In this document: positions 10,584 through 45,705 of the stretch, piece by piece
Numbering within the stretch: position 1 is the stretch's first letter
Layout of the letters: each line of letters begins with the position of its first letter
Assembly (NCBI GenBank): GCA_018350325.1
Contig: JAEVLN010000024.1
Span: 403,248 to 467,247 of the forward strand
From: Globodera rostochiensis
Taxonomy: Eukaryota; Nematoda; Chromadorea; Rhabditida; Heteroderidae
Direction: 5' to 3'
DNA length: 64,000 nt
Program-made: the position numbers and the translations under genes
Notes under the pieces: generated by a model
Told to the model about the DNA's origin: nothing
The model's input: the letters and a program-made list of their open reading frames with translations, nothing else
The model's database searches: none

Positions 10584-12846
10584 CCAGTGCCCGGTGGGCA
10601 CTGGTTTTTAAAATTTCTTGGTATTGAAATCGCCAAGGCGATTTTAACACTGAGCCTAGGCGCGCTTCGCGCGGCACGTTTCCCTTTGGCGGCCTTCTGA
10701 CATATTCCCCGTTTACATTTTCTCTTTTGGCATTTTCCCCTTTTGACACTTCCCTTTTAGGTTTTTTCAATAGAATTTTGTTTAAATTTTTAAAAATAAA
10801 AATTGTAATTAAAAACATTTTTAATATTTTGTTTTAAAAAATTTTCCGTTGTTCCTTTCCGTTCAACTCTTCCTTCCATCCGTTCTTCTCTACTTTCTCT
10901 TTCTTCCAATTCCTTCCGTTCTTCTCTTCCATGCCTCTCTTCTCATCCGTTCGTCTCTTTCTTTCATCGCCTCACCTTTTTCCTCTCTTCCTTTCCTCCC
11001 TTTCTCACTTCCTTTCTTCTCTTCTTTTCTTCCTTCGTTCAGCTGTTCTTTCCTTCCGTTCATCTCTTCCATTCCCCTCTTCTCTCCGTTCATCTTTTTC
11101 TTTCATCGCCTCACCTTTTTTCCTCTCTTCCTTTCCTACTTTCCTCACCTCCCTTCTTCTCTTTCTTTCTCCTTCCGTTCATCTCTTCATTCCCTCTCTC
11201 ACGTCCCTCTCTTTTGTTCCGTTTGTCTCTTCCTTTCCTCCCCTCCCCTCCTTTCCTCTATTCCTTTCCTCCACCTCCCCTCCCTCTTTCTTTTACTTTC
11301 CTCCCGAGTCCCCCCTCCCTTCCTCTCTCCCGTTCCTCTCTCTCCTTCCGTTCATCCCTTCTTTCCATCCGTTCCTCTCTTCCGTCCTTCTCTTCCGTTA
11401 CTCTCTTTTTCCGTTCACCTCTTCCATTCCTCCACCTTCCCTTCTTTCCTCTCTTCCTTTCCTATCTTCCTTTCCTCTACCGCACCTTCTTTTCTCTCTT
11501 GATGTTTTCTCTTCTCTTCCGTTCATCTTTTCCTTTCCTCCACCTCACCTCCCCTCCCTTTCTCACAACATTTTTTCTTCCATTCATCTTTACCTCTCTT
11601 CCGTCCCTCTTCCCTTCAGTTCATCTCTTCCTCCCTTCCCTCCCTCTTCCCTTCAGTTCATCTCTTCCTCCCTTCCCACCCTCTTCCCTTCAGTTCATCT
11701 CTTCCTTCCTTTCCTCACCTCACCTTCCTTTCTATCTTCCTTTCTTCCCCCCCCCCCTTCCTTCCTCTCTTCCGTTCCTCTCTTCCCATCCGTTCATCTC
11801 TTCCTTTTCTCCACCTCTCCCTTTTCCTCTCTAACCCCTTCCGTGCATCTCTTCCTTTCCTCCCCTCACCTTTTTCCTGGCTTCCCTTCCTTCCTTCCTC
11901 ACCTTTTTTTCTTCTCTTCCTTCCCTCCCTTCCTCACCTCCCTTCTTCTCTTCCTTCCGTTCAGCTCTTTCTTCCGTTCATCTCTTCCTTTCTCCCCGCT
12001 CACCTTTTTTCCTGGCTTCCCTCCCTTCCTTCCTTCCTCACCTTTTTTTCCTCTCTTCCTTCCTTCCCTTCCTCACCTCCCTTCTTCTCTTCCTTTCTTC
12101 CTTCCGTTCATCTCGTTCGTTCCTTCACGTGCATCTCTTCCTTTCCTCCCCTCACCTTTTTCCTGGCTTCCCTTCCTTCCTTCCTTCCTCACCTTTTTTT
12201 CTTCTCTTCCTTCCCTCCCTTCCTCACCTCCCTTCTTCTCTTCCTTCCGTTCAGCTCTTTCTTCCGTTCATCTCTTCCTTTCTCCCCGCTCACCTTTTTT
12301 CCTGGCTTCCCTTCCTTCCTTCCTCACCTTTTTTTCCTCTCTTCCTTCCCTCCCTTCCTCACCTTTTTTTCCTCGGCCTTTCCTCTCTTCCTCACCTCCT
12401 TTCTTCCTTCCGTTCATCTCGTTCCTTCCTTCACGTGCATCTCTTCCTTTCCTCCACTCACCTTTTTTCCTCGCTTCCTTTCCTTCCTTCCTCACCTCCC
12501 TTCTTTTCTTCCTTTCTTCGTTCCTTTCTTCAATTCCTTTCTTCTCTTCCGTTCATTTCTTCCTTTCCTCCGCTCACCTTTTTTCTTCTCTTCTTTCCCT
12601 CTCTTCCTCACCTCCCTTCTTTTCTTCCCTTCCGTTCTCCTCTTGCGTTCTTCCCCCTAACTTCTCTTCCTCCCTCCTCCCCTCCTTTCCTCTCATTTTT
12701 ACCTTCCCTCAATTTTATTCCTTCTTCCCCCCCCCTTGCCTCCCTTATTCTCTTTCTTTCTTTTAATGTTTTTTTCTTAAAATTTTATTCAAAAAAATTT
12801 TTTATTTTTAAATAAAAAACTTGCTAGAATCTTATTATATAGGGAA
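10584..12846. mobile_element. Satellite-bearing insertion with GC hairpin end, copy A
   Basis: Comparison with the empty site at 4735-4745 (AATATAAA joined to TAAATACC) shows that 10584-12846 was inserted with at most a 2-bp duplication. The left end is a perfect hairpin, CCAGTGCCC/GGGCACTGG with a 3-nt loop (10584-10604); the core is a long pyrimidine satellite. A terminal hairpin, a minisatellite core and no target duplication recall short Helentron (Helitron-like) elements inserted on the minus strand, but I see no conserved end motif, so the class is inference. The inner words CTTTTGGCATTTTCCCC are shared with the insertion at 29.7-30.8 kb. Confidence 0.6.
10849..12770 (+). repeat. 1.9-kb polypyrimidine tract with higher-order repeats
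   Basis: The + strand is almost only C and T, made of degenerate TTCCTTCC/CTTCCGTTCATCTC units. A larger unit is visible: CGTGCATCTCTTCC occurs at 11842, 12128 and 12434, giving spacings of 286 and 306 bp. Such homopurine-homopyrimidine DNA can form triplexes. Very long open frames run through it on both strands (Ser/Phe/Leu/Pro one way, Glu/Lys/Arg the other); these follow from the composition and are not called as genes. Confidence 0.9.
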
Positions 12847-15476: not shown

Positions 15477-15624
15477 ATCAACGCAAAATGACTACTAATA
15501 TTGTTAAATAAATTAATAAATTTTGATGTCAATCTGTGAAACATACTTTTGCTAAAATTTAACTTACAAATATTAAAAATTATGATTAAAAATAAGAAAA
15601 TCAAGACCATAAAAGGAATTGCAT

Positions 15625-16986
15625 ACACTTAATATAAATAATAAAGACCATAATCTATTAAATACCATAAATTTAATAAAACTACATCAGACGAAGGAAT
15701 TGGTCGTTGTGTGGGTTTGAACAAGTATAAATTAAACTAATAATAACAGAGAAATTTTAAAATGAGAAAGATTATTAAAATCCATAATATAATACAATCT
15801 AATATAAAAAAGACGATAATGCAATGAAGGATGATATTTCAGAGCTAAAAGTCGATTTTTAAGAATTACAATTCATTTATTTTCCGTTAAAAGCTTCTAA
15901 TATACTTCATAATAATAAACAAATCATGTTTTAAGACCGACAAAAATACGAACTTTAACGTAAAATACACTTAATATAAATAATAAAGACCATAATCTAT
16001 TAAATACCATAAATTTAATAAAACTACATCAGACGAAGGAATTGGTCGTTGTGTGGGTTTGAACAAGTATAAATTAAACTAATAATAACAGAGAAATTTT
16101 AAAATCAGAAAGATTATTAAAATCCATAATATAATACAATCTAATATAAAAAAGACGATAATGCAATGAAGGATGATATTTCAGAGCTAAAAGTCGATTT
16201 TTAAGAATTACAATTCATTTATTTTCCGTTAAAAGCTTCTAATATACTTCATAATAATAAACAAATCATGTTTTAAGACCGACAAAAATACGAACTTTAA
16301 CGTAAAATACACTTAATATAAATAATAAAGACCATAATCTATTAAATACCATAAATTTAATAAAACTACATCAGACGAAGGAATTGGTCGTTGTGTGGGT
16401 TTGAACAAGTATAAATTAAACTAATAATAACAGAGAAATTTTAAAATCAGAAAGATTATTAAAATCCATAATATAATACAATCTAATATAAAAAAGACGA
16501 TAATGCAATGAAGGATGATATTTCAGAGCTAAAAGTCGATTTTTAAGAATTACAATTCATTTATTTTCCGTTAAAAGCTTCTAATATACTTCATAATAAT
16601 AAACAAATCATGTTATAAATATTTTGAAGCTTCAAAGGCGCTAACACTTGCATGCATATTGACTGACGGGCTGCTCATAACAATTTGAACAAAGTAAATA
16701 TATTAATATAAATGGCTGTCGGCTCTCAATTTTTACATAAAAATTGAGGTAAACCTAAGACCGACAAAAATACGAACTTTAACGTAAAATACACTTAATA
16801 TAAATAATAAAGACCATAATCTATTAAATACCATAAATTTAATAAAACTACATCAGACGAAGGAATTGGTCGTTGTGTGGGTTTGAACAAGTATAAATTA
16901 AACTAATAATAACAGAGAAATTTTAAAATGAGAAAGATTATTAAAATCCATAATATAATACAATCTAATATAAAAAAGACGATAAT
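15625..16986 (+). repeat. 342-bp tandem repeat array, three full-length spaced copies plus a partial
   Basis: Units start ACACTTAATATAAATAATAAAG at 15625, 15967 and 16309 (exact 342-bp spacing) and again at 16791 after an interruption. The first three copies are nearly identical. The interruption (16613-16754) contains a shortened copy of the 7563-7690 repeat. The unit is a member of the dispersed family at 4370, 4720 and 10230. Near-identity suggests recent amplification. Confidence 0.9.
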
Positions 16987-21799: not shown

Positions 21800-23470
21800 T
21801 TTAAATTAAAGATTAAGCGAAAAGGGCGGAATAAAGTCTTAACTATTATATTTGATAATCATTAAGGATAGCAAAATTTTTTCAAACAGTCTAATAATGT
21901 CAGGACAAAACCACGCTTAGCACAAGAATAAATATCATTACGGACTTTAATTCGAATAAAATTAAGGAATGCCTTATCAATATTTTTATATGTCAAATGC
22001 ATAAACTAATCTTAAAAATATTAAAAATATTAACTTGCTACGCATTTCATGCAAATTTGAAATAAATTTTTATACTAATTCTGATTGATTTAAACTAAAT
22101 TTCTGAAACTATTATAAAAACATATTTAAAATTAATCTAATGAAGCATGTTACAACAAAAAAGTGCAAGTTTCCGGACCCCTGCACAAATTCACATCCTT
22201 TTACAATATAATCATTTATAAGCAATAAATGTAAGAAAATTAAAATTCTCAGAAGTTTTATGTAACAAAATATAAAAAAACCATTCTGATATATAAAAAT
22301 AAAAATTTTACGATTTTAAAAGAATAAAGTTCAATATAAAGAATTACTTGAAACCAATCAAAAGTGGGGAGAAAAAGCAACGGAAAACCAAAGTAAAAAA
22401 TTTGTAATAAGTAAAGCAATAAAATGATGCGCAAAAGGCAAATAATTCGCCCAACGTTCAAATCAGAAATTTATTTACCCAAAAACCATAAAGTAAAATA
22501 TGTAAATAAATAATGAATACTTCGTAAATTTACTCGAATAAACATAAAAAACATAAGCTTATTAGGTGAAAATAAATGTAAAACTATGTAACTAGGGCAA
22601 ATTAATATATATCGGTTAATGCACAAATATATGTAAGATATAAAAATAGATTTTAGAAAGGAATTGGAGGAAGTTATTAAAAAAGACCCGGTTTCATGCC
22701 AAACAATCGCAAATCAATTTGGTAACTAACTACATTTGTCCGGTACGAATAAAAAACCGTGCCTAACTGGAAAAAGTAAATTAGAAAGAAACAAAACGTA
22801 TTAATAATAGTTGCTTTAAATTGTTGTTTTTAAAAGTTCTTTTTTGACATTACAATATTGATTATCTAAATATAAACGACAAATTAAAAAATAATATTTA
22901 AATTATTGAAAAATAAATGAAATCAAAACTGCCGGCAATAAACAGAGCAGTTGGTGACTGGCAGCAAAACGAAATATATAAATTAATTTATTATTAGAAA
23001 CTAAAACACCAAATTAATAATGAAAATTTAATATCATATCGGACCATTAAAAATTAGTTACTTAAATATTAATGAATTAATTACAAAAGCATTTTGTATT
23101 TGTTCATGAAGTTATAGGTTTCATACAAAACATTCTGCCGCGGCCAATCCTGCCACATCGTCTCAAATGCATTTATTTGTCAGAAGAAAAACTTAATAGA
23201 AAATGTTTTCCAATTTGAAAATAAATAAAAAATTAACAAATTTAAACATAATGAAAAATATTTGAATAATTTGCAAAATATATAATATTCACAAATAACG
23301 GCAGCTGAAACAAAAACAATGCGAAGTTCAAAGAAAAAAGTATTTTATTGATTTTCTTTAAAACATTACTTCTTAACTAAAAACTAAATATGTACTTAAT
23401 TTCCTAAATTAATTGTCGGCTGTAGAAATCCACGGGAAATCAAGAAAACCACAAGCCAATATAATATAAT
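21800..23470. other. A-rich intergenic DNA, no gene seen
   Basis: Three short GC-richer islands stand out: about 22660-22775 (an open frame with a Lys/Glu-rich, helix-turn-helix-like run before a stop at about 22727), 22929-22972, and 23127-23170. On the minus strand the last has a 25-codon frame starting at ATG. None has splice signals good enough to join into a gene. Confidence 0.4.
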
Positions 23471-23479
23471 TTTACATTT

Positions 23480-23708
23480 TTTTTGTTCCAAAAGGGGAAA
23501 TCTTGTAAATTGGCATCAATTGGTTCTCTTTTGTATAGAGAGAAATTATGGAGGGGTAGAGAATTTAGATAGACCATTTGTCTTCACGAAAATTTTGAGG
23601 ATTGTAGGGATTTAAAAGGGTTAGATCGCTTACTTGGTCTTCGGGTGAAACAATGGCGTTGATTAAAGAAATTAGCAAATCTTTATTCTCCACGTGAAAC
23701 ATTCAACC
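23480..23708 (+). other. Probable bacterial DNA upstream of mnmG, with a parS-like half site
   Basis: This stretch is less AT-rich than its surroundings. A frame open from about 23498 to the TAA at 23611-23613 has a protein-like composition and would be the tail of a neighbouring bacterial gene that I do not recognise. Just before the mnmG start is CCACGTGAAAC (23690-23700), which matches one half of the parS/ParB consensus TTTCACGTGAAA often found near gidA in bacteria. The left edge of the transferred segment is uncertain. Confidence 0.45.
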
Positions 23709-23817
23709 ATGTCCTGGCAGTATGATATTATTGTAGTAGGTGCCGGTCATGCTGGCTGTGAAGCTGCTGCAGCAGCTTCTAAAATGGGGTTAAAGTGCTT
23801 CTATCTATTGCAGGTTT
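23709..23817 (+). pseudogene. mnmG: 5' fragment of bacterial mnmG (gidA)
   Basis: From the ATG at 23709 the frame encodes the start of MnmG, the FAD-dependent enzyme that, with MnmE, makes the 5-carboxymethylaminomethyl modification on tRNA wobble uridines in bacteria and organelles. The diagnostic N-terminus is present: [16 protein letters not shown], the glycine-rich FAD-binding loop (GAGHAGxE). About 30 codons later the frame breaks: one base appears to be missing near 23791, after which the expected Lys-Val-Leu-Leu run continues in the next frame, and similarity ends at about 23810-23817, where a nematode repeat block begins. The full protein is about 620 residues, so nearly all is missing. 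The preceding parS-like site and lack of a Shine-Dalgarno box would suit a Bacteroidota symbiont such as Cardinium, but that source is inference. Confidence 0.82.
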
Positions 23818-24529
23818 AATTGACTAACTTTAAAGCTAATATAATCGAAATCACCATTATTTATTTATAAATGGGAAAACATTTGCATATGTTGAAGAAA
23901 GATAAAGCAGATAAATTATTCGCAAGCTTATAAAAAATAATTTAGACTCGCTGCAGACCAAATTTCCCGCTCAATGCGATTCGAAGGCATTGGAAAATAA
24001 ATAATATAATTAAAGAAAATTCCAGAATTAAGATTTTAAACAAAATAAATAATAGTATATCAAAAAGAATACAGCACAAGCCCTATTATAGTAACTTTAA
24101 TTCGTGGATTGAATAAATATCAAATAAAAACCCGAATAATTAAGAGATGTGATTTAATTTCAATATTTTATGAATAAAGATATTTCCTGGTAAAAGATAA
24201 AAAGAGTTACGTAAAGTAATTATAATTAGAATTTATGATATCAAATTAAATGTAGCATCTTTTGTAATAATCAGCATAACCCAAATAATGTATTAAAATA
24301 ACTGGTTAATAAAACAATTAAAATGGTAAACTTGCAAACAGCTTTGCTGAGCAATTTTCTTGGGGTTCCTTTCATTTTTAAGTAATAGATTATTTTCTTT
24401 TATATTAATACGTTCATAACACGTGTACAGAATAAACAATATATGATGTTATTTTTAATTTAAAAAAAACATTTAATGATTCTGATGATTGGGGAAGAAG
24501 GCAAATTAAAGGCCGAAATGACGAAGTTG

Positions 24530-41092: not shown

Positions 41093-41095
41093 AAG

Positions 41096-41108
41096 TGGTG
41101 CCACGACC
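41096..41108 (+). promoter_or_regulatory. tRNA primer-binding site of the retroelement
   Basis: TGGTGCCACGACC begins with TGG three bases after the LTR and is complementary to a tRNA 3' end terminating in CCA. I cannot say which tRNA without the host tRNA set. Confidence 0.6.
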
Positions 41109-41112
41109 AAAC

Positions 41113-43416
41113 ATGTCAGGACCGATCCGAATGCGCATTCACCCATCATTGGCAAAGTTGCGAGAAAAATTGGTGGAAGTGAGACCAATAGTTGAAGCAC
41201 AAGAGAGGACGCCGGAGGGCATTGAAGTATTGAGAAAATCGCTAGTCAAAATAAAAAGAGCGGTAAATTTCATTGAAGAGCGAATTGAGCAATGGAGGCT
41301 TTATATGGCCGGATTGGAAGTCGCACAAAGAGCCGTCGAAGAAGGCATTTTTGAAATTATGTTAAATAACGGGCGGCATATGACCGAATGGTTGGAAGAC
41401 GCAAGAGAATTGATTGAAGAAATCGAAATAATCTTAGTAAATGAAGCCGACGATGGCTCAGACACATTATCAGTGGAACTGGGAGTTCGAAGAGTGAATC
41501 GAAATGAAATTGAAAGAAATGAATCAAGAGTCGAAAATAGAGAAAGAAATGAAGCACCTCCGGTATATTACCCAAAGCTCCCCTGGCCACACTTTTTCGG
41601 GGACACGCTATCTTGGCCAACGTTTTGGCAAGCATTTCAAGCAAATTTAGGGGAAAAACCAATTTCAAACGCACAAAAATGCACTTATTTATTATTGAGC
41701 CTAAAAGGAAAGGCGGCTCGAGCTATGAGAGGATATCAACCGACAGCAGAAAACTACGATTTAGTAGTAAATGCACTAAAAAGACTTTTTGGCAATGAAA
41801 AAGTCATCAAAGAAGCACTTCAAAATGAATTATTAAACTTACCACAGGCGAATGAAGCAGCAGCTTCACTCAGATCGTGCTTAGAAGACGTAGAAAGAAT
41901 TGTAAGACAACTAAACAATTTAGGATTCGTAGGAGACAAAGACTTTGTCATGATGACAATTAAGAACAAATTTCCGAGAATGATCATACATGAAGCATTC
42001 GTTCTAAAGATTACCAAAGTATGGTTAAAAAAGATCAAGAGATCTCCGGAGACGCCACATATCAGAAAGATTTCGGAAGAAGAATTTGTAAACCCACAAG
42101 ACTTTGAAATCGCAGAAATGGAAGTCCTAAGACAAGGACAAACCGGATGGGACAAATATGCAGAAAAACAGCAAACGGTCAAAACAATCAAGGAAAAAGA
42201 TGGAATCATTAGATCAGACTCAAGAATTAAAAATAGCGAAATGCCATATTCATTCAAATTCCCGATTGTATTCCCAAAAGGAGCCTCAATTATAGAAAAT
42301 TTGGTTTGGAAAGCACACGAAAAAGTCAGGCATGGGAAAGTCGATGCCACATTGAATGAATTTCTCACAGAGTTCTGGGCTCCGAACGTAAGAGCAATTG
42401 TAAAAAGAGTGGTTAAAACGTGTACTAAATGCAAAAAAATGAATGGCCCAGCATTTGCCCTACCACCAATGCCACCACATCCGGAAGAGAGAGTCAGGAT
42501 ATCACGCCCATTTGAATCAGTGGCGATCGACTATTTAGGTCCTTCTCTGGCAAAAAAGGAAGGCAAAACGGTAAAGTTTTGGATCGCTCTAATCACATGT
42601 CTGATAACGAGAGCAGTTTATCTCGAACCGGTACTGGACTTATCCGCGTTCTCCTTCTTACAAGTTCTGAGGAGATTCGCGAGTAGAAGAGGAACACCGA
42701 AAAGAATAATATCAGATAATGCACAGACATTCAGACTAGCGGCAAGAGTAGCAGGAGCGTATGAAGCAAGAGGAGGAAAATGGAGAGACGAATTGGAAAA
42801 ATACTTGGTCAAGAATAAAATAATTTGGCGATTTATCCCAGCACTTACCCCGTGGGCAAATTCATTAGCCGAGAGATTAATTAAAGTATGCAAAGACGCA
42901 TTCAAATCATCCTTGGGAAGAATGGTCCTACAAATAGAAGAATTACGCACCTTTACAGCCGAAGTCGAATGGACAATGAATTGCAGACCAATCACACACG
43001 TATCGAGTGAACCAGAAGGAGAGAGAGCCCTAAGACCAATTGACTTCATAAACCCAGGATTGGAATTGGGAATAAACCCACCAAACTTTGGAGACGAAAC
43101 AGAAGACGATTTGGAATTCAATTTGAAGCCAGAAAAGTTGAAGGATCAATTACAAACTCGATGGAAAAAGACAAATAAAGTATTAGAATGGTTCTGGAAA
43201 AGATGGCATACTGAGTACTTAACCATTCTTAGGGACAGAACACAGTGGCTACACAAAGGCCCAAAAACTCAAGAGAAAAGGGAGCCGGAAGAAGGCGAGA
43301 TTGTTTTGATCGAAGACGCCCAGAAACACATGGAAAGTAGGCAAAATAATAAAGCTGGGCGGCAGAAAAGGCGCAATCCGCAGCGCACAAGTAAAAATAG
43401 CACCAAAAGGAAATGA
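41113..43416 (+). CDS. Gag-integrase fusion polyprotein of BEL/Pao element (lacks RT)
   Basis: One open frame of 767 codons from the first ATG (41113). Residues 1-120 are a charged coiled-coil-like Gag start. About 150-300 match the DUF1759 Gag core (Leu-Pro-x-Phe/His-Phe-Gly-Asp then Trp-x-x-Phe). The frame then passes directly to integrase: a zinc-binding HHCC motif with His402, His407, Cys437 and Cys440, and a catalytic core with Asp473 (in AIDYLGP), Asp535 (in ISDNAQ) and Glu587 (in SLAERL). About 670-740 begin DUF5641. Protease, RT and RNase H, roughly 900 residues in complete relatives, are absent. The C-terminal end is off-frame: the conserved Trp-x-x-Gly-Lys region of DUF5641 lies in the next frame from about 43331 to a stop at 43586, so a single-base shift has occurred near 43320-43330. 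The catalytic residues remain, so integrase could have been functional before the shift. Confidence 0.9.
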   Translation: MSGPIRMRIHPSLAKLREKLVEVRPIVEAQERTPEGIEVLRKSLVKIKRAVNFIEERIEQWRLYMAGLEVAQRAVEEGIFEIMLNNGRHMTEWLEDARELIEEIEIILVNEADDGSDTLSVELGVRRVNRNEIERNESRVENRERNEAPPVYYPKLPWPHFFGDTLSWPTFWQAFQANLGEKPISNAQKCTYLLLSLKGKAARAMRGYQPTAENYDLVVNALKRLFGNEKVIKEALQNELLNLPQANEAAASLRSCLEDVERIVRQLNNLGFVGDKDFVMMTIKNKFPRMIIHEAFVLKITKVWLKKIKRSPETPHIRKISEEEFVNPQDFEIAEMEVLRQGQTGWDKYAEKQQTVKTIKEKDGIIRSDSRIKNSEMPYSFKFPIVFPKGASIIENLVWKAHEKVRHGKVDATLNEFLTEFWAPNVRAIVKRVVKTCTKCKKMNGPAFALPPMPPHPEERVRISRPFESVAIDYLGPSLAKKEGKTVKFWIALITCLITRAVYLEPVLDLSAFSFLQVLRRFASRRGTPKRIISDNAQTFRLAARVAGAYEARGGKWRDELEKYLVKNKIIWRFIPALTPWANSLAERLIKVCKDAFKSSLGRMVLQIEELRTFTAEVEWTMNCRPITHVSSEPEGERALRPIDFINPGLELGINPPNFGDETEDDLEFNLKPEKLKDQLQTRWKKTNKVLEWFWKRWHTEYLTILRDRTQWLHKGPKTQEKREPEEGEIVLIEDAQKHMESRQNNKAGRQKRRNPQRTSKNSTKRK

Positions 43417-43588
43417 GACGAAAGGGAGAATAATCGAAAGACCAATAAATAAATTATACTCACTTGAAATAAATGGTATAAAAAACGAAAAGAATAATGA
43501 AAATAACCTTAAAAAAGACGAAGTACACCCAAAAAGGGAGAAACAGGCAAATACCGATAAAAAGGAAATCGATGAAATAAATAAATAG
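43331..43588 (+). pseudogene. Off-frame C-terminal tail of the DUF5641 domain
   Basis: This frame (+1 relative to the main ORF) carries the typical end of BEL/Pao Pol: a Trp-Lys-Val-Gly-Lys start and a Pro-x-x-Lys-Leu-Tyr-x-Leu-Glu end, then a Lys/Glu-rich tail to the TAG at 43586-43588. It is separated from the main frame by one indel. Confidence 0.75.
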
Positions 43589-43639
43589 GCACCCAATGAT
43601 CACGCGAGCCAAAAACAGCAAAACAGACTTTCGACCATA

Positions 43640-44170
43640 ATGATGGTGATTGGATTAAGCCTTTTTTCTATAAGGAAGACAGTCACCAGTAACGAAACAA
43701 AAAATAATGAAAGAAGCGAACCAATATGCACCGATTGCAAATTAAAATGCGGAATAAAAGGAGTAGAATTAACCACACCAGCAAGCATCGAAAAATTCGA
43801 AATCTGCTGTATGGGAGAGTGCCTCGCCCAATCATCAGCAACCAACTATATCTTTAGAATGGAAAAAGTCAGATTAATGACCAACCATTATTGTACAGTG
43901 ACTTATTGGACCAAAGACAAGAAAACATATCAAAATAATATTTTTTGCCCACCAATTAACGAATGCGAATTAATTACGTGTTGGGTGTGTTTAGAGAAAT
44001 TGGCAAATCCAGAATGTATGATGACAGAAACACTAATTGTAATGGGAATCAGTCTAACTTGCATTTTATCAATCACTGTTTGTACGATTACGTCATTGGC
44101 CAAAATAATCATCCATCTTTGGTGGATTATCAAAATCTGTTTTTTTGGCCCATATTGGACAATAAAATGA
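43640..44170 (+). pseudogene. Envelope remnant, Gn-like part with membrane segment
   Basis: An ATG-started frame of 176 codons downstream of pol, where nematode BEL elements keep env. It is cysteine-rich (two early Cys-x-x-Cys pairs, several Cys-Cys and Cys-x-x-Cys later) and ends with a hydrophobic run of about 45 residues (about 130-175), like the membrane anchor at the end of the first glycoprotein of a bunyavirus-type precursor. The assignment rests mainly on position and on the clearly Gc-like segment that follows. It is short for a whole Gn, and a frame change separates it from the next part. Confidence 0.55.
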
Positions 44171-44215
44171 CTGTGGAAATTTAAAGAAGAAAGAACAAAT
44201 GTTGAGGAAATAGAA

Positions 44216-44407
44216 ATGAGCTTACTGAAAGAAATCGATAAAAGAGACAGAGAAAAATCACAGAAAAGAAGAAATAGGAGACTATACAAATTGGGAAGCA
44301 TTACACTAGTCGCACTAGCAATCATAATGAACTTAAATTATTCAAATAGTACCCGTGAGAGGGGGCGCAGAGACAGTATCAGTACAAGCAAATTCGGAAG
44401 ATTGTGA
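44216..44407 (+). pseudogene. Envelope remnant, Gn tail and Gc signal-anchor part
   Basis: About 25 charged residues (Lys/Arg/Glu) are followed by a hydrophobic helix (residues about 28-42) that would act as the internal signal for the second glycoprotein. The frame is lost at about 44350, just before the Gc-like segment, which continues in another frame. Confidence 0.55.
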
Positions 44408-44885
44408 GAGAAAATCAAACGGATCAATATGTAGAATAAGAGGCGCTACAGAATTGACTATTCTGCCAGCAGGACAAAAAGTCTCATTAGCACTAAAAGA
44501 TGATAAAGGAAAAATAGCAGGTTCGTTGGAGTTAAAATTACAATTTTTACGGTTGCATTGCAACCAAAACACAGTTAAATGGTTAAGATCGTACAAAGTA
44601 GAGGTGGTGTCAAAAAGAAGGTGTCCAACCATGGGATCCTGCAAAAAGGGAAAATGTAAACATATTCGAATGAGTGATCCAATCCCGGAGATGAAAGAAT
44701 ACGAAAATTTTCCAGGAAATAATTTTTGTAAAGATGGAGAAGCAATTTGGGGGCATAAATGTGCATTACCCTCAACAGAATGTTTCTTTTACAGAACATA
44801 TGCGAAACCAACTTCGGACAAAATAATGCCCAGGGGGCAAGTCAAAATTCTCTCTAAAAGGAAAATTAGGATATGTACCTGTTAA
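44355..44885 (+). pseudogene. Envelope remnant, phlebovirus G2 (Gc)-like N-terminal half, truncated
   Basis: The frame shows the Phlebovirus_G2 pattern known from nematode BEL elements: early cysteines, a Leu-Pro-x-Gly-Gln region, an Arg-Cys-Pro...Gly-Ser-Cys-x5-Cys segment, then Pro-Gly-x-x-x-Cys...Trp-Gly-x-x-Cys...Glu-Cys-x-Phe-Tyr-Arg. This is the disulfide-rich part around the class II fusion loop. The similarity stops at about 44825 and the frame ends at 44883-44885. A complete Gc has about 500 residues; about 170 remain. It is a broken fossil. Confidence 0.75.
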
Positions 44886-45705
44886 TGAAAAAGAATTTAA
44901 AATAAGAAATACGGAAAAACTCAAAGAAGATAAATCGGACTGGAGTTGGGAGAACATAAAAATAATCGACTGGAGATACTTATTAAAAGTCACATTCAAT
45001 TGGAAAAACCTTTTAATGATTCTGATAGTTGCGGCCATTTCATTAATTATCTTATTAATAATGAAAAATCTATTCCTCAAATTTTCACCAATGTCAAAGG
45101 GCTTTAAACTGATTAGCAGAAGCATAATCACCATGGGCGTCCTTATTTTAATTTGTAAAGCGGAATCTTTGCCCGTGGGAGGGTCGCAGGAGAGCGACGG
45201 AATAAAAATGAGCAACATGACCAACGTAAACAGCAAAGATTATGAATTTTGCAGAAACAAAAGACCAAAAAATCAGTCCATTAAAAAGATTGACTCAGAA
45301 CCGCCAGTAAATTCGGATGAAGAGAATAAAGAATGGTTTAAAGGAAATGCCAAAAGACAAAGGACCCTGTTTAGTGCTCGTAGTGAGAGCAAAGGTCAAA
45401 GCTTACACACAAATTTGCAGTATAAAAGAAGAATGAAAATCATGAAGGGGCACAACCCCAACCAAAGATTTGCCCCAACACCCCCCACAAAAATGGCCGA
45501 AAGAAAGACTCCCCTGATTTCATTTGCGGCAGAATTAATGCAAATCGACACCAAAGAGATCCCGAGAACTCTAAGTCTCTGGGCAAAAAGAGTCCGACAA
45601 CTTGAGGCAGAAATGAAAGACATTGAAGAACGGGGAGGCCAAATTTGGAGCGCAATGAACTCAAAAGAAGCCCCACACCCACACCAAAAAAGGGGTATAA
45701 AATAA
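44870..45705 (+). pseudogene. Envelope remnant, stem, membrane anchor and long tail, running into the LTR
   Basis: This frame is open from about 44840 to 45705. It has a Trp-containing stem, a hydrophobic helix at 45010-45075, a second hydrophobic run at 45118-45165, and a long basic tail ending with a Glu/Arg-rich helix. The last residues are encoded by the 3' LTR remnant. A tail this long is unusual for an envelope protein, and part may derive from another accessory frame. Sequence between this and the Gc-like part has been lost. Confidence 0.5.

Follow-up and report, generated by a model that had tools for sequence, protein, structure and literature searches.

The locus lies on contig C17 of the Globodera rostochiensis assembly (92,606,168 bases in 80 contigs), within a 64,000-nt stretch of DNA analysed as a whole and referred to here as the window. 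Among the four rDNA loci of the assembly, L014, L015 and L016 match a primer specific for G. rostochiensis exactly, the part of L013 compared shows no such match, and the primer for G. pallida has three mismatches at every locus. About 300 bp of this stretch, positions 23504-23803, are composed of three broken bacterial gene pieces, murB, rpn and mnmG, whose observed order and strands are given in Table 1 together with the neighbouring features. Host DNA is present on both sides of the insert in the same contig. The bacterial genes are damaged: mnmG is truncated and one base short, and murB and rpn are present as fragments only.

A previous reading, made from the sequence alone (the sequence-only reading), had described positions 23480-23817 as an mnmG fragment with a lost base, preceded by probable bacterial upstream sequence and a half-site, and cut off by a nematode repeat. 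The mnmG fragment, its truncation and its missing base (by comparison with cHgTN10) were all recovered, and the repeat that cuts it is continuous in five other copies. The supposed upstream sequence corresponds to two more gene fragments, rpn and murB; the mnmG piece is real, and that the insert is a three-gene mosaic had been missed. The bacterial core does lie within the proposed extent but is better bounded by 23504 and 23803, and the half-site exists but is in fact most of a parS site.

Table 1. Features of the bacterial insert and its flanks (window coordinates)
Feature	Position	Strand	Observation
Left flank	23357..23429	.	Matches a second nematode locus (C12:6087550) at 84% identity, E 5.9e-13
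Segment left of the murB piece	23430..23503	.	Further murB poorly supported (500 shuffles each)
murB fragment (VNWHQLVLFCIERNYGGVENL)	23504..23567	+	Matches G026 with 79% identity across 63 bp (E 2.6e-9)
Rpn-family PD-(D/E)XK nuclease/transposase gene fragment	23568..23690	-	41 open codons; 85% over 41 aa to cHgTN10 copy
parS-like site	23686..23701	+	Outermost bases replaced where it meets rpn; TCC common to both partners
mnmG 5' end	23709..23803	+	88% identity to cHgTN10 across 83 bp; lacks one base near 23790
14 bases, possible filler	23804..23817	.	Cardinium match stops at 23802-23803, nematode repeat match starts at 23818
Nematode repeat interrupted by the insert	23818..24427	+	Copies at window 20800, C30, C45 (two) and C8 extend upstream

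A profile search of the whole assembly with TIGR00136 recovered the mnmG piece (E 1.0e-5) and eight matches of the worm's own MTO1 on contig C56, and nothing else. At the DNA level, the piece matched genome G042 with an E-value of 5.2e-23. G042 was identical to P0188, the MnmG of Cardinium hertigii, and is taken to be cHgTN10, whose host is the soybean cyst nematode. When P0188 was compared with the window by tblastn without composition adjustment, 24 of 25 residues were matched (E 4.8e-9), while the reversed window gave no match. In its own frame the piece was absent under the default composition adjustment of tblastn and in a six-frame translated scan. Among the best 120 proteins listed, P0188 showed the top identity (96% over 25 aa) and ranked 69th by E-value, the window fragment alone being scored. 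Among 390 genomes of the order, seven relatives were found at E <= 1e-290, and no match named Cardinium was among those listed (at least 80 loci) in a contig scan with P0188. A plasmid search returned no match, and a phage search returned MnmG loci of bacterial appearance. Two of the entries filed as phage (MT836603.1 and MT836448.1) carry full-length MnmG frames among seemingly ordinary bacterial genes.

The sequence-only reading had named a eukaryotic MTO1 gene as a competing source of the mnmG piece. The MTO1 of the worm is interrupted within the compared segment by an apparent intron; once spliced, it shares 45/69 bases with the piece, as against 62/69 for cHgTN10. The host gene, or a copy of it, is ruled out as the origin by these counts, the piece being nearer to cHgTN10 than to worm MTO1.

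Upstream of mnmG, the parS-like site (TTCTCCACGTGAAACA) differs by three mismatches from TGTTTCACGTGAAACA and by two from the form TGTTCCACGTGAAACA, as judged by direct comparison. A like site is located at most 60 bp upstream of mnmG in 9/16 family loci and in 27/56 loci of other Bacteroidota. Its presence beside mnmG was accordingly rejected as a mark of Cardinium alone.

The assignment of the rpn piece rests on its cHgTN10 relative (translated match, E 6e-17), which PF12784 and TIGR01784 place in the Rpn family. In a PF12784 search of the assembly, of low sensitivity, the rpn piece was the sole place found (E 4.8e-4). In cHgTN10 (G042:C1) the Rpn family is represented at 17 matching places, several of them clustered, and six other family genomes have one or few matches each. 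Among the best 120 relatives listed, Cardinium comes 15th (85%), behind proteins of named Alphaproteobacteria (88%) and Rhabdochlamydiaceae (85%). The family is common among intracellular bacteria and the piece was rejected as proof of Cardinium. Between the rpn genes of cHgTN10 and G223, 11/27 changes are nonsynonymous, a count from which the rpn of the insert resembles a living bacterial gene.

For the murB piece, G026 was the sole strong match among 19 family genomes, with 49/63 identical bases compared to 44/63 for cHgTN10; 8 of the 14 changes against G026 are nonsynonymous. The translated match to cHgTN10 murB (E 1.2e-5) and the gene context agree with the assignment to murB. This translated alignment nominally starts at 23436, with 48% identity over 44 aa. 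Left of 23504, however, the murB DNA score was reached by 425, 286 and 58 of 500 shuffles (L156, L157 and L158, respectively) and the protein score by 308, 191 and 6 of 500, and the L158 protein match, at 23403-23420, falls inside the nematode repeat of the left flank. A leftward extension of murB past 23504 was rejected on these shuffle counts.

No comparable signal was found elsewhere in the window. In a translated six-frame comparison of the 64 kb with 1,767 cHgTN10 open frames, matches at E <= 0.01 were confined to 23436-23786 and comprised murB, 17 rpn copies and an antisense shadow of mnmG; the reversed window gave zero matches with the same frames and threshold. Untranslated matches outside the insert, with E between 1e-5 and 1e-3, numbered 7 for the window and 11 rows for the reversed window. 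The window contains no tRNA detected by ARAGORN with the bacterial code and no Rfam family at gathering scores. Elsewhere in the window, frames at 41095-45705 resemble by eye a BEL/Pao-type retrotransposon (gag-like and integrase-like, then env-like frames), strongly strand-skewed, pyrimidine-rich repeats of TTCC type extend over about 2 kb at 10849-12815, and a 342-bp unit is repeated in tandem (2.9 copies, 99%) at 15623-16618.

An assembly-wide search for further fragments of the bacterium, as the sequence-only reading had proposed, did yield one: a 36-bp rpn snippet on another contig (C3:2305513-2305548; L002:1501-1536), upstream of a collagen-like gene. It is identical at 35/36 positions to window 23570-23605 in the rpn piece, and no translated Cardinium match was found in the 3 kb around it. 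It could have been captured separately or copied from the first insert. When three 20-kb pieces of cHgTN10 were searched against the assembly, the mnmG piece already known was recovered, and every other match was of low complexity. The piece carrying murB gave zero matches, and the seven matches of the piece carrying rpn copies were dismissed as chance, all seven falling in low-complexity Ala/Lys-rich or EGKAEGK-type coding sequence. Since these searches overlooked the known murB and rpn pieces, further inserts may be present.

All three genes occur in cHgTN10, but taken piece by piece, the nearest relative was cHgTN10 for mnmG, the only one among 73 loci to match 23/23 residues (96 loci were supplied, of which 73 gave the 69-base segment), and G026 for murB, while rpn was non-diagnostic. 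Over the three pieces, pooled identity to cHgTN10 is 195/255 (76.5%). This is close to the genome-wide identity of 77.47% between cGros, the Cardinium of G. rostochiensis, and cHgTN10 (CP029619) printed in PMC12842512, and would fit a donor strain like cGros. Another intracellular donor, whether a different member of the Cardinium family or one mixed with Rickettsiales where rpn is concerned, could be argued from the Rpn relatives in Alphaproteobacteria and Rhabdochlamydiaceae, from the murB match to G026 and from the closeness of other family genomes on mnmG bases (60/69 for G223, 59/69 for both G151 and G186). The unique residue match, the presence of all three genes in one genome and the agreement of the pooled identity with the printed strain distance make it distinctly improbable.

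Against cHgTN10, nonsynonymous changes numbered 0/7, 11/34 and 8/19, where simple neutral fractions would be 0.75-0.81. Changes being mostly synonymous, much of the divergence accrued while the genes still worked in bacteria, and these sequence comparisons thus suggest a transfer that was probably recent when set against the divergence between the strains. The missing mnmG base would represent later decay.

At the insertion site, the five repeat copies compared, less diverged than others in the assembly, run leftward from the position equivalent to 23818 with related AT-rich sequence, where bacterial DNA is present here instead. The portion of the repeat upstream of 23818 was not found left of the insert, so host DNA was probably also lost or rearranged in the event. 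The TCC carried by both partners at the rpn/parS join is compatible with microhomology joining. The cHgTN10 coordinates are 588.6 kb for murB, 733 kb for mnmG, and 495-502 and 1036-1040 kb for the rpn copies closest at the DNA level. With the three loci at least 87 kb apart, joining probably happened in the worm. We infer that the junctions were formed in the nematode nucleus, because truncation affects both murB and mnmG and the loci are distant from each other in cHgTN10.

Taken together, these results favour the reading first proposed: bacterial DNA, possibly from Cardinium, that was inserted into nematode DNA and has decayed there. We hold with considerable confidence that a 300-bp mosaic, likely derived from Cardinium, sits in a nematode contig, and that it likely represents symbiont DNA end-joined at a chromosome break in an ancestor of G. 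rostochiensis. The symbiont genome would degrade in a dying Cardinium and yield fragments, and fragments of three loci would then be end-joined during repair of the host break, presumably with little or no homology, such as the shared TCC. We predict that the insert has no function and is drifting.

Two other routes to the same structure have to be weighed. The three pieces could already have been adjacent in the donor and have entered as one fragment of a symbiont locus that had been rearranged or pseudogenised. The 17 rpn places of cHgTN10 show that copies are numerous and could move, but mnmG and murB are both cut within 300 bp, and neither rpn nor murB was detected when nine mnmG neighbourhoods of eight genomes (seven loci of 4.7-4.9 kb, G223 and G178) were searched with positive controls; we therefore regard this route as unlikely. 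Less probable still, and very much so, is a chimera of assembly or library in which contaminating Cardinium DNA was joined to nematode reads. The symbiont was detected in 1/10 G. rostochiensis populations, according to PMC9918034, and contamination is conceivable on that ground. A single chimeric read would nevertheless not be expected to hold three unlinked, truncated fragments (63-123 bp) within 300 bp and an mnmG short of one base, and a full mnmG is absent from the assembly as judged by TIGR00136. In addition, RF00177, with 5/1144 candidates scored, found SSU rRNA four times at full length and twice in pieces on C17; the full-length places are 58.6% identical to cHgTN10 over 676 bp, as would be expected of host 18S.

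End-joined symbiont DNA thus being the preferred reading, a broader interpretation seems to us somewhat better than even: that the insert is the first nuclear Cardinium fossil in a nematode, with three unlinked loci captured at one break in an infected ancestor, in an assembly without sign of live Cardinium, and with the C3 snippet suggesting repeated capture. A review (PMC12342168) gives no Cardinium-host transfer as reported by 2025, and a 2023 survey of plant-parasitic nematodes treats such transfer as a possible, unexcluded source of false PCR positives (PMC9918034). Within the limited literature covered, a search on Cardinium and transfer found no nematode case. The kind of event is already known, and the Cardinium-nematode pair of donor and host is new as far as this literature was searched. 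Should it be confirmed, the insert would document that potato cyst nematodes were infected in the past and would call for caution in PCR surveys.

In mosaic nuclear insertions of mitochondrial DNA, unlinked organelle fragments are joined end to end with little homology; the source here is a bacterium and not a mitochondrion. A 2026 ant study likewise gives Cardinium as the inferred donor, for 9/497 loci (PMC13320244); the hosts there are insects, and the likeness drawn here is one of description. Nuclear insertions of Wolbachia in arthropods and nematodes (PMC9918034; see also PMC12693587) are similar in consisting of truncated, frame-damaged endosymbiont genes in a host genome. They differ from the present case, where the likely donor belongs to the Bacteroidota, the host is a plant-parasitic nematode and the insert is a three-gene mosaic of about 300 bp.
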